Part shown: piece by piece, positions 8,720 to 15,057 of the stretch
Numbering within the stretch: position 1 is the first letter of the stretch
Layout: the number at the start of each line of letters is the position of its first letter
Source: Phycisphaerae bacterium
Lineage (GTDB): Bacteria > Planctomycetota > Phycisphaerae > Sedimentisphaerales > Anaerohalosphaeraceae
Direction: 5' to 3'
DNA length: 53,616 nt
Assembly (NCBI GenBank): GCA_029858345.1
Contig: JAOUFG010000004.1
Location: forward strand, 1-53,616
The notes under the pieces: generated by a model
The model's database searches: none
Told to the model about the DNA's origin: nothing
Seen by the model: the letters and a program-made list of their open reading frames with translations, nothing else
Translations under genes and position numbers: made by a program

Positions 8720-8793
8720 GGGCGCTTAGCTCAGTTGGCTAGAGCACCTGCCTTACAAGCAGGGGGTCACAGGTTCAAGTCCTGTAGCGCCCA
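8720..8793 (+). tRNA. tRNA-Val (anticodon UAC)
   Basis: A complete cloverleaf of 74 nt. The acceptor stem pairs GGGCGCT (8720-8726) with AGCGCCC (8786-8792) and the discriminator is A8793. The D arm is GCTC/GAGC, the anticodon stem CCTGC/GCAGG closes loop CTTACAA with anticodon TAC, and the T arm ACAGG/CCTGT closes TTCAAGT. The CCA end is not encoded. The 3' end faces a tyrosine recombinase gene, so this tRNA is the likely attachment site of the accessory island. Confidence 0.96.
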
Positions 8794-8800
8794 TTGAATT

Positions 8801-8836
8801 GCCCCAATGACAAACAGTGTCAAAAGGGCTTTTTTT
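8801..8836 (+). terminator. Terminator after tRNA-Val
   Basis: A two-part stem: GCCC (8801-8804) pairs with GGGC (8826-8829) around an inner perfect stem TGACA/TGTCA, followed by seven T residues. It ends the tRNA transcript before the minus-strand recombinase gene. Confidence 0.65.
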
Positions 8837-8970
8837 ATGCCAAAAACAAGATTTTTCGGTGTGATAAGTCATCTTGTAAAAAGTATTCCAGACTCTGATA
8901 GCGCAGAACAAAGACAAATAAAACCAATCGTTTCCAAAAAAGTGTACATATAGGCGTACATGTAAAAGAC

Positions 8971-10353
8971 TTATCCAGTCCGTTTCTTTCTGGTTTTATA
9001 TTGCTTGGGTTCTGGTCTGTATAATCGGTCAATCGCCTGAACATCATCCCCATGCAGGACATGGGTGTAATAACTCATTGTCGTTTGTATATCGCTGTGT
9101 CTTGCCAGTTTTTTCAGGATATGGGGGTAAACTCCCTGACTTGCCAAAAGAGAGCAGAAAGAATGCCTGAGACTGTGGAGGTGTACTACCCTGTCGAGTT
9201 CGTCCTTCTTATCGATTCCGGCAAAGTCTAAATCTCGATTGAATGCTTTCAGGAAAGAGGAATTTGAGGCAGGGACATTTACTACCCTGTCTTTGGCTTT
9301 TGCATCCGGTTGGTTTTCTTTCCACGCCTCCAGCAGTTCTTGAATGTACTCATGCATCGGCAAGGTACAGGGCTTGGCGTTCTTTGTTGTGGTCGATCTG
9401 ACCTTGATATATCGTTTATTAAGATTTATGTCATTCCAGACAAGCTGCCGGACTTCATTTACCCTGAGTCCTGTATAGAGCATGAGCGCATAGGCAAGTC
9501 GTCTTTCCTCTCCATTTAGCTGATATTTGCGTATCGTTGCCGGACGGATATTTTTGTATTTACCCTGTCGCTTTTCCAAGGGTCGTCTATATGCCCCATC
9601 CAGCAGTTTTTCCACTTCATCCGGCATTAAGCTTCGCGCCTCTCTGACACGGTTCGTCTTTTCGTCCAGACGGGTAAAGTCCACAAATGGATTTTGACTT
9701 AGTAAGCGGTTCTGATAAGCCCAATTACAGAAATACCGGAGTCTGTCAACATAGACATTTACCGTTCTGTCCGAAAGCCCTTTGTCTTTCATTTTATTGA
9801 TAAACTCTTTTACCGGAGGTTGGCATATATCTTTGAGATATTGAAAGCCACAATCAGAGACTATCGCTTTCAGGCAACGCTTCACTTCTTTTCGGTGTTC
9901 CTCCGTTGTGCCGGAGGCCTGTAAATCTTCACTATATAAGTCAAAGAGTTGTTTCAGTGGCTTTCGGCTTAATTGGTCGCCTTGTGTTTCCTGACCGCTG
10001 GCAATCAAGGCCTCCTGTACCTTGTCCCGTATCATGGGGCTGATTTCATTCAGCGGCGGTATGGCCCGATGCGCGCGGAGCAGTTGGATATACTTTACCA
10101 GTTCATTCAGAGCCGCTTGACTGGCCTCTTTTTCCTGACAAAGTGTGATTGTCCGGCGTTTGCCGTGATAATCGTTGTACCGTCCTGCATAGTTTCGTTG
10201 TGGCTTGAGGTAGCTTTTGCCATCCTTGGTTAAAAATGCCTTAACCGTCCTGCTGTTGTGATCTTTGATGTTGATATAACAGCGTCCCCTGCTCTTGTGA
10301 ATCGTTGCATCCTCCGGCAATTCTGTTGCATAGGTGGGTTTAAAAACTGACAT
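8971..10353 (-). CDS. Tyrosine recombinase (integrase) of the tRNA-Val side
   Basis: A 460-residue phage-type integrase. The N-terminal 110 residues carry an arm-binding-like region with aromatic KSYLKPQRNYAGRYNDYHGKR. A SAM-like core-binding domain follows (about 120-235), then the catalytic domain. The catalytic set is visible: Arg in LYTGLRVNEV, HSLRH, ARHS in place of the more common LGHS, and the nucleophilic Tyr in TTMSYYTHV. I start it at ATG10353 because GAGAGGA lies 7 nt upstream; the open frame continues further but overlaps the regulator gene. That gene ends only 2 nt before this start, so the two form an operon. It should integrate the element at the adjacent tRNA-Val. Confidence 0.92.
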   Translation of the reverse strand: MSVFKPTYATELPEDATIHKSRGRCYINIKDHNSRTVKAFLTKDGKSYLKPQRNYAGRYNDYHGKRRTITLCQEKEASQAALNELVKYIQLLRAHRAIPPLNEISPMIRDKVQEALIASGQETQGDQLSRKPLKQLFDLYSEDLQASGTTEEHRKEVKRCLKAIVSDCGFQYLKDICQPPVKEFINKMKDKGLSDRTVNVYVDRLRYFCNWAYQNRLLSQNPFVDFTRLDEKTNRVREARSLMPDEVEKLLDGAYRRPLEKRQGKYKNIRPATIRKYQLNGEERRLAYALMLYTGLRVNEVRQLVWNDINLNKRYIKVRSTTTKNAKPCTLPMHEYIQELLEAWKENQPDAKAKDRVVNVPASNSSFLKAFNRDLDFAGIDKKDELDRVVHLHSLRHSFCSLLASQGVYPHILKKLARHSDIQTTMSYYTHVLHGDDVQAIDRLYRPEPKQYKTRKKRTG

Positions 10354-10355
10354 AG

Positions 10356-10571
10356 TTATCCTCTCTTTCTGCCTGTTGGCTTTAATTCGAGATTCAATAC
10401 TTTTGCAATCTTGGAAGCGGATTTTAGAGTGAGACTCCGCTTGCCATTCATAAACAGGGATAGCTGCGCCTCGGATACCCCGGCGGCCTTGCTGATCTGA
10501 TAACAACTCATGCCGGAGCGTCTTATCGCCTCCCTCATTTGCTGTTCAAGATGGTACTGTTCTTTTGCCAT
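10356..10571 (-). CDS. Cro/CI-type helix-turn-helix regulator
   Basis: A 71-residue DNA-binding protein, all one HTH_XRE domain: MREAIRRSGMSCYQISKAAG forms helices 1-2, VSEAQLSLFMNGKRSLTLKS the recognition region, and a basic tail (KPTGRKRG) follows. The start ATG10571 fits the family. A TTG at 10631 would add 20 residues but gives a poor N-terminus. It ends 2 nt before the integrase start and probably controls integrase expression, as such small regulators do in integrative elements. No clear ribosome binding site is seen. Confidence 0.8.
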   Translation of the reverse strand: MAKEQYHLEQQMREAIRRSGMSCYQISKAAGVSEAQLSLFMNGKRSLTLKSASKIAKVLNLELKPTGRKRG

Positions 10572-13547: not shown

Positions 13548-13564
13548 AGTTTGAATCCCTTTCA

Positions 13565-14668
13565 TTAATCTAATTGGTTTATTGCTGATCGATTGACACC
13601 CGGCTGACAATGACCGTAAAGATCAACCGTCATAGTAATAGAACTATGACCCAATTGCTCTTTGACATAATGAATTGGTGCACCAATTTGAAGTAGCAAC
13701 GACGCATAAGTATGTCGAATATCATGGACGCGGATTTTGGGCAGCTTCGCTTTGGTCAATGATTTATAGAATACACCTCGCCTGAAAATATTGGCATTGA
13801 TCGGTTCACCTTCACGGTCTGGAAATACAAGGCATATCTTCTTTTTCTTATGTGATTGACAGTGCAAATCCTTATTTCTGGCTTTATGTCGGGCTTTCAA
13901 TGCTTTATATAATCCATCCGTCATATCAATATATCGAACCTTATGCGATTTGGGTGTGTCCCAATGGTCATGGCTATAGCTTCGTTGGACAATAATCTGC
14001 TTAGTATCAAAGTTCACACTGTCCCAAGCCAATCCCACTAATTCACCAAGCCGCATACCAGTACGGAAGGCCGTAAGCACTAAGTCATAATAATCGGGTT
14101 CGTCCTTTTGAATGACGTCCAACAGTCCCGTTACTTGCTCCTTAGTTAGAAATTGGGTTTTCTTCTGCGGTTTCGACTTCTTGAAAAATCGGCCTAAATT
14201 ATGAGCCGGATTCACAAGTACAATTTCCCGTTCTACTGCCTCGGCAAACACCGCACTAATGCAAATTCTGATATTCTGTACGCATAACCCATTGCCTTGT
14301 TTATCCAATAGAAGCCGCTTGACCTCTTGCCGATTGATGCTCTTTAATTTCTTATTTTTCCATTCTGGCAGCAAGTACAATTCGGCAATCCGTTGATATG
14401 AGTACCATGAGTTACGTTTTAATCTGTGCTTTGCAACCTTGTTAATGTACTCCTTGAAGAACCCCCCGAATGTGACATTATCCTTGTCCAGCCCTCGTCC
14501 ATTGGTAAAATCGACCTGACCTAATGCCAATTGCTCCCGAAATTTTCGTGCTGCCTTTATTGCTGTTCCTTTTTCAGGTCCAATTTTCCGTGATGTCCGT
14601 TGGCCCTTGTGATTAATCCACACATACCAATCCCCGCTTGTTTTTTGCTGATAAAGCCTAACACCCAT
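13565..14668 (-). CDS. Tyrosine recombinase (integrase) of the tRNA-Ser side
   Basis: A 367-residue integrase of the lambda/XerD superfamily. The N-terminal arm-binding domain (1-60, WYVWINHKGQRTSRKIG) is of the AP2-like type, the SAM-like domain spans 65-165, and the catalytic domain follows. The catalytic set is complete: Arg in TGMRLGELVGL, Lys in PKSHKVR, HDIRH, LGHSS and Tyr in TVDLYGH. AAAGGGG precedes ATG14668. The gene lies next to the 3' end of tRNA-Ser, the usual target geometry, with clustered inverted repeats between. It probably drives a second integration event, independent of the tRNA-Val recombinase, which is only distantly similar. Confidence 0.93.
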   Translation of the reverse strand: MGVRLYQQKTSGDWYVWINHKGQRTSRKIGPEKGTAIKAARKFREQLALGQVDFTNGRGLDKDNVTFGGFFKEYINKVAKHRLKRNSWYSYQRIAELYLLPEWKNKKLKSINRQEVKRLLLDKQGNGLCVQNIRICISAVFAEAVEREIVLVNPAHNLGRFFKKSKPQKKTQFLTKEQVTGLLDVIQKDEPDYYDLVLTAFRTGMRLGELVGLAWDSVNFDTKQIIVQRSYSHDHWDTPKSHKVRYIDMTDGLYKALKARHKARNKDLHCQSHKKKKICLVFPDREGEPINANIFRRGVFYKSLTKAKLPKIRVHDIRHTYASLLLQIGAPIHYVKEQLGHSSITMTVDLYGHCQPGVNRSAINQLD

Positions 14669-14703
14669 AATTTACCCCTTTCCAAAAATGTCCTATTTCC
14701 TTG

Positions 14704-14786
14704 TTTTACACAATGTACAAGAGGCCTTTATCTTTAATTCTTATCTATGTCGTACTTTGTGTAAAATAGCGCATCTATATAGGTGC
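14704..14786. repeat. Inverted repeats upstream of the tRNA-Ser-side integrase
   Basis: The arms TTTTACACAATGTAC (14704-14718) and GTACTTTGTGTAAAA (14752-14766) are inverted copies matching at 14 of 15 positions with a 33-nt spacer. Just beyond lies a near-palindrome GCATCTATATAGGTGC (14771-14786). They occupy the roughly 300-nt gene-free stretch between the integrase start and tRNA-Ser. Likely roles are arm-type recombinase sites or a regulator's operator. No other gene is visible between 14669 and 14967. Confidence 0.55.
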
Positions 14787-14967
14787 ATTGTGGCGTGTTT
14801 TCTGGACCTCGAACACCCGGAAAATGGATAGAATTGGACTTTTTTAGTTGCACATAGAATGCGCTTTTTCGTTATGAATAACCGAATGAGAGAAAATGGA
14901 GATTGGGGGGATGGTAGAACGACTCGGGTTGTAATTACTGTGCAGACAAGCAATTAGTTATATTTAA

Positions 14968-15057
14968 CGGAGAGGGGGGGATTCGAACCCCCGGTACCCC
15001 TATTAGAGATACGACGGTTTAGCAAACCGTTGCCTTAAGCCGCTCGGCCACCTCTCC
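14968..15057 (-). tRNA. tRNA-Ser (anticodon GCU)
   Basis: A 90-nt class II tRNA with a long variable arm. The acceptor pairs GGAGAGG (15057-15051) with CCTCTCC (14975-14969) and the discriminator is G. The anticodon stem-loop CGGTTTGCTAAACCG gives anticodon GCT. The variable arm lies around TATCTCTAATAGGGGTA, and the T loop is TTCGAAT between GGGGG and CCCCC. The CCA end is not encoded. Its 3' end points at the right-hand integrase, making it the likely attachment site. Confidence 0.96.

Follow-up and report, generated by a model that had tools for sequence, protein, structure and literature searches.

A probable composite remnant of two integrative elements between facing tRNA-Val and tRNA-Ser genes in a Phycisphaerae draft genome

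The window analysed here is a whole stretch of 53,616 nucleotides (positions 1-53616 of contig C30) from the draft genome G000 of a Phycisphaerae bacterium (3.0 Mb, 198 contigs, 99.5% complete). Within this window, tRNA-Val(tac) and tRNA-Ser(gct) enclose a stretch of approximately 6 kb, which is probably the fused remnant of two unrelated integrative elements, joined through a fragment of a third integrase and deprived of both far ends.

Exactly two tRNA genes were detected by ARAGORN over the full 53.6 kb, with concordant Rfam results over 8000-15500, and the 3' ends of both point inward. Each tRNA adjoins its own tyrosine recombinase, matching PF00589 above the curated cut-off: IntVal lies 178 bp from tRNA-Val and IntSer 299 bp from tRNA-Ser. 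Both reading frames are whole, and the two proteins share 23% identity over 287 columns. This arrangement had been described by the initial annotation, which was made from the letters and their reading frames, and it is confirmed here. The presence of an HAF protein was likewise correctly recognized, while a third recombinase (IntMid), a helix-turn-helix (HTH) gene, a Prim-Pol fragment and a truncated zinc-ribbon/SH3-related gene had been missed. The position of the integrases beside inward tRNA 3' ends is not a matter of chance, since homologues in other genomes repeat it. Measured in 500-base steps, the G+C fraction is 0.36-0.49 for 8500-15500, versus 0.47-0.58 for 6000-8500 and 0.48-0.59 for 15500-18500. 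The interval and its borders comprise the following features:

8039-8563, minus strand: nitroreductase-family gene of the left flank (PF00881; orthologues beside tRNA-Val in G003, G001 and G004)
8720-8793, plus strand: tRNA-Val(tac) (ARAGORN, Rfam)
8794-8857, plus strand: terminator region 3' of tRNA-Val, common to G003 (alignment to locus L132; 57 nt at 89%)
8971-10353, minus strand: IntVal, tyrosine recombinase of 460 aa (PF00589, phrog_1); the reading frame as listed opens with TTG at 10506, and the ATG at 10353 is a better fit
10356-10571, minus strand: HTH protein of the Cro/C1 type, a possible directionality factor or repressor, with a probable start at 10571 (PF01381 and PHROGs regulators, matched on the open reading frame 10356-10631)
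10628-10828, minus strand: Prim-Pol gene remnant cut at the left seam, with the final 66 codons and the stop kept (C-terminus matches; PF09250)
10829-11799, plus strand: IntMid, fragment of a third tyrosine recombinase (971 bp) lacking both ends (DNA homology to L306 and L307; PF00589)
11800-12294, plus strand: C-terminal part of a zinc-ribbon/SH3-like protein, its N-terminus lost at the right seam (53% identity to the L185 and L186 proteins)
12326-13399, plus strand: HAF-repeat protein with a PEP-CTERM-like end, island cargo by position only (NCBIfam TIGR02913)
13406-13567, minus strand: small open frame of 53 residues after IntSer (translation; among the loci compared, it matches only the window's own)
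13565-14668, minus strand: IntSer, tyrosine recombinase of 367 aa (PF00589, PF14659; relatives at tRNA-Ser)
14669-14966, minus strand: attachment-proximal element DNA between IntSer and tRNA-Ser (70% alignment with G004 that continues through the tRNA; blocks conserved in L185-L187 and G039)
14967-15058, minus strand: tRNA-Ser(gct), the integration target (ARAGORN, Rfam)
15384-17408, plus strand: pheT, right flank (Pfam; upstream homology to G002 from 15292 and to G007 from 15295)

The element at tRNA-Ser

The right half of the interval is, with good support from sequence comparison, interpreted as a tRNA-Ser element attached at tRNA-Ser. This support comes from an integrase family that keeps its tRNA-Ser site, from post-tRNA DNA shared with the congener G004, and from relatives with both ends. 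Indeed, the four relatives of IntSer at 63-66% identity (L185 from GWC2_45_44, G282; L186 and L187, both from GWF2_42_9; and one in G039) all lie next to a tRNA-Ser gene or to a displaced tRNA-Ser copy, and all four read away from it, as in the window. In the three GW loci, the integrase starts 295-309 bp downstream of a full tRNA-Ser (gct, tga and gct, respectively), compared with 299 bp here; the G039 relative, which is 63% identical over the 177 residues preceding its contig end, starts beside a displaced tRNA-Ser copy. Moreover, G004 shares the approximately 300 bp of DNA leading from tRNA to integrase at 70%, retaining only the first codons of the integrase itself, and these approximately 300 bp are not common to G002, G007 or G009. 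Displaced copies of the tRNA-Ser 3' part are present in L187, G004 and G039, and both attachment ends are kept in L187 (second copy approx. 3.3 kb away; 103 columns, 86%) and in G004 (3.3 kb away; 66 columns, 91%).

The cargo of the right half is partly shared with these relatives. In L185 and L186, the integrase is followed downstream by a gene for a zinc-ribbon protein, with an SH3 match that stays under the curated cut-off. The C-terminal part of this protein matches window positions 11800-12294; the gene is not present in the L187 locus. The HAF gene sits between the zinc-ribbon gene and IntSer. The initial annotation had taken it for the main cargo: the gene does lie in the interval, but it is cargo by position only. 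Indeed, HAF relatives were found in 31 of the 98 genomes of the order, own genome included (E<=1e-15), and HAF as defining cargo was dropped on account of this spread.

From these data, IntSer would have recombined into the 3' part of tRNA-Ser, rebuilding the tRNA and leaving some 300 bp of element DNA before the integrase. Since the distal tRNA-Ser 3' copy was not found in window or draft genome, the right half is a remnant and no complete island.

Some further observations concern this family. The placement of the integrase relative to the tRNA is flipped between clades: the 63-66% clade (L185-L187) has its integrase start 295-309 bp from tRNA-Ser, and among the other IntSer relatives (L188-L224), it is the integrase end that lies 72-163 bp from a tRNA 3' end in 16 of 37 cases, the tRNA being of another type. 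L185 also carries a homologue of the Vsr mismatch endonuclease (10411-10812; PF03852) downstream of its IntSer relative. In G007 (contigs C110 and C141; L138, L139), one contig holds tRNA-Ser with an adjoining integrase and the second an exact 64-nt copy of the tRNA-Ser 3' part near integrase-like reading frames; more than one integration has probably taken place at this tRNA-Ser.

The left element and the two seams

The left half, as far as gene order tells, looks like an element of the integrase-HTH-Prim-Pol type, IntVal being followed by the HTH gene and a Prim-Pol C-terminus. Among 98 genomes searched, five others encode proteins of 335-384 residues whose C-termini match the product of the 66 Prim-Pol codons (34-49% identity), and the full-length counterparts that were scanned (three of three) match PF09250. 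As in the left half, Prim-Pol adjoins an integrase or HTH gene in the elements L320, L321 and L323; unlike them, the window keeps the last 66 Prim-Pol codons only. The order in L320 is tRNA-Leu, integrase, Prim-Pol, with an integrase matching PF00589 only below the cut-off.

The IntVal family is also linked to tRNA genes. Ten homologues (E<=1e-40, IntVal itself excluded) were retrieved from 397 genomes of the class, and seven of them have a tRNA (Gly, Glu, Thr or Ser) whose 3' end is directed towards the C-terminus of the integrase; the spacing, counted from where the homology ends, is 173-282 bp, and by the same measure it is 181 bp in the window. The left element would thus belong to a family that adjoins the 3' ends of tRNA genes of several kinds, tRNA-Val being its neighbour here, and attachment of the element at tRNA-Val itself is probable.

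Contrary to the proposal of the initial annotation, the two halves do not simply abut: the two remnants do share one interval, but the IntMid fragment stands between them, bordered by two gene-breaking seams. At the DNA level, IntMid matches L306 (82%) and L307 (76%), both matches beginning at 10829 and stopping at 11799. Compared with the L307 protein, it lacks approximately 22 N-terminal residues and the last 23, including a RYVQ motif that presumably holds the catalytic tyrosine. At the left seam, the open Prim-Pol frame extends to 10828, where it is cut; at the right seam, similarity to the zinc-ribbon proteins starts mid-protein just after 11799. A 39-nt pattern across the left seam, the only seam searched in this way, had no match in viral contigs. 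Separately, the IntMid family has five matches in G004 (contigs C95 and C157 among them), some with stops, and the two IntMid-family loci read (L306 and L307) are without tRNA.

Whole replication genes and both attachment ends, as in an active element, were not retrieved: the Prim-Pol and zinc-ribbon genes are cut and the distal ends were not found. The remnant can probably no longer move. Deletion and rearrangement would have cut into both elements, which may once have occupied separate chromosomal sites, and joined them via the third-integrase fragment; the same events would have removed the distal attachment ends with the rest of both elements, leaving tRNA-Val and tRNA-Ser face to face. 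We infer this order of events from the final layout of the pieces.

Lost ends, tRNA neighbourhoods and competing explanations

No second copy of either tRNA 3' end was detected in the window by pattern search, repeat search or short BLAST. The search was extended to the draft genome, by pattern for tRNA-Val (<=3 mismatches) and by BLAST for both tRNAs (E<=0.001). No partial tRNA-Val 3' copy was found, the matches being full-length or without a 3' end (two that were checked are tRNA-Val(gac) and tRNA-Val(cac)), and no distal copy of tRNA-Ser(gct), the matches being full-length, in tRNA-Ser(gga), or the C84 copy of tRNA-Ser(tga); matches on C44, C94, C142, C150 and C154 were left out of inspection, and a copy shorter than the threshold could escape. 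The absence of distal copies within these searches agrees with the loss of distal ends suggested by the initial annotation. Phage and plasmid relatives are weak only, all below 60% identity (<=30% among the eight matches listed per search, <=32% in 80 viral loci).

The C84 copy marks a second small decayed island in G000. There, tRNA-Ser(tga) lies at 40011-40097 (L148 7012-7098) and a copy of its 3' part at 41829-41893 (L148 8830-8894), 1.8 kb downstream (63 nt, 86%), with apparent integrase and ATPase remnants between them.

For each of the two tRNAs, the surroundings were read in six congeners; G009, read for both, has contigs ending at tRNA-Val and 32 nt upstream of tRNA-Ser. The nitroreductase gene stands on the 5' side of tRNA-Val in three of the six congeners read for this tRNA (G003, 87% identical; G001, 75%; G004, 73%). 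No gene is common to the tRNA-Val 3' flanks examined in these congeners; G004 has an integrase there, and the gene that follows tRNA-Val in G003 finds no match in G000, so that the original right flank of tRNA-Val is not shown by G003. As for tRNA-Ser, it follows polA in three of the six congeners read for it (G002, G007 and G008), and other genes take this place in G004 and G006. In G000, the tRNA that follows polA (contig C129) is tRNA-Arg(acg), tRNA-Ser standing beside pheT instead. A pheT match was obtained in 57 relatives, and the locus was read in 29 of these over at most 1.5 kb of upstream DNA, several of the contigs being cut; none of the 29 had a tRNA upstream of pheT. Given these placements, tRNA-Ser has changed neighbours in this lineage. 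Neither the gene order of the window nor the adjacency of tRNA-Val and tRNA-Ser occurs in any relative read. Comparison with relatives, which the initial annotation had proposed as a check, thus did not reveal the conserved order that would contradict an insertion, but neither did it yield a clean empty site. Elsewhere in the window, a single open reading frame of 4224 residues occupies 39409-52083 on the minus strand.

Several observations weigh against two fused remnants. Approaches via pheT and the DUF4139 gene both failed to yield the empty site just mentioned, a failure owing to the different gene order around both tRNAs between species. Furthermore, the zinc-ribbon gene is inverted relative to IntSer when compared with L185 and L186, and a further inversion must be assumed. 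DNA orthologous to G003 runs 64 nt past tRNA-Val, to 8857, terminator included; this argues against a crossover inside tRNA-Val with a short attachment block, which should have displaced the G003-type DNA, and attachment blocks extend just 0-9 nt past the tRNA at four related sites (G039, G004, G007 and C84). Three of the ten IntVal homologues also lack the tRNA geometry (one with the tRNA reversed, two without a tRNA in the DNA examined). This continuity with G003, these three homologues and the absence of a second tRNA-Val 3' copy in window and draft genome would fit a locus whose one true tRNA island is that on the tRNA-Ser side, the IntVal and Prim-Pol remnant stemming from another event beyond the native tRNA-Val terminator, with its own site downstream of it or unrelated to tRNA. 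We consider this quite unlikely, as a tRNA 3' end faces the integrase at 173-282 bp in the other seven homologues, against 181 bp in the window, and as L187 provides an example of a long attachment block, reaching 42 nt past the tRNA. The retained terminator would reflect either such a long block, or an element site downstream, or a tRNA-Val that was never used. The proposal of two integrations from opposite ends, with distal ends lost, therefore holds well on the tRNA-Ser side (site of the integrase family, G004-shared DNA, two-ended relatives); on the tRNA-Val side, integrase geometry and the integrase-HTH-Prim-Pol order speak for it, but the terminator retained to 8857 speaks against a crossover within the tRNA.

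The route by which both remnants came to share one interval also has to be considered. If the tRNAs were already neighbours before either element came, both would have been hit in place and internal deletion alone would be needed, with no long-range fusion. This offers the simplest geometry, with both 3' ends facing one interval, but the tRNAs are never adjacent in the relatives read and tRNA-Ser follows polA in half of the congeners read; even though fast gene-order change here weakens that objection, we hold prior adjacency to be unlikely. A tentative possibility is a chromosomal rearrangement joined at islands from separate sites, breaks inside both being sealed by a stray integrase fragment, with tRNA-Ser moved from polA to pheT and a double-ended island left between two tRNAs. 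The draft state of the genome, with its 198 contigs, makes a misjoin conceivable, and G002, G007 and G009 have contig ends near these same tRNAs. An artefact of assembly or binning, in which the contig wrongly joins two separate islands, is nevertheless very improbable: IntMid has no second copy in G000 at E<=1e-20, and a misjoin via a repeated gene would be expected to leave this gene whole, not cut at both ends. On balance, the fusion of two unrelated remnants through IntMid remains the probable explanation.

Relation to known islands and significance

Islander deals with genomic islands targeted to tRNA and tmRNA genes and with tandem arrays, its table giving 125 for two or more islands in one tRNA (PMC4383910). 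As in the islands described there, a tyrosine integrase stands beside a rebuilt tRNA 3' end in the window, and in relatives of the right half a displaced piece of the tRNA marks the distal end. Unlike them, the locus has two remnants sharing one interval from opposite sides, and no displaced fragment was found here, so that the Islander rule, which requires a tRNA plus its cognate fragment, would not call it. The comparison with tandem islands in one tRNA, drawn from the same text, is similarly divided: different integrase types stand side by side in both cases, but the elements of the window lie between two different facing tRNAs with no shared attachment copy. Such a tandem array was met in G039 (contig C52; L150 9541-15492), where an IntVal-type and then an IntSer-type integrase occupy one tRNA-Ser, with a Toprim-domain protein, a possible ATPase and a 67-nt displaced tRNA copy (97%) between the integrases. 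A further likeness is to the L185-L187 elements, which have the same tRNA-Ser site and spacing, an integrase 63-66% identical and, in two of three, the zinc-ribbon gene; in the window, by contrast, this gene is truncated and inverted, the HAF gene is present and the distal end is lost.

Most likely a composite remnant, the locus represents an ordinary and known type of genomic scar, and its pieces and breakpoints are unusually easy to tell apart. The face-to-face fusion from two different tRNAs looks unusual, yet it would be the product of ordinary processes.

The locus offers a base-by-base view of two tRNA islands decaying into a single composite scar. A small family of tRNA-Ser elements in Planctomycetota also emerges, in which the integrase lies approximately 300 bp from the tRNA and points away from it, with zinc-ribbon/SH3-like cargo in some members. 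The locus also calls for caution: two tRNAs with integrases may enclose an interval that is not one island. Should the rearrangement described above have taken place, the interiors of mobile elements would be a route for reshuffling tRNA neighbourhoods in this family.

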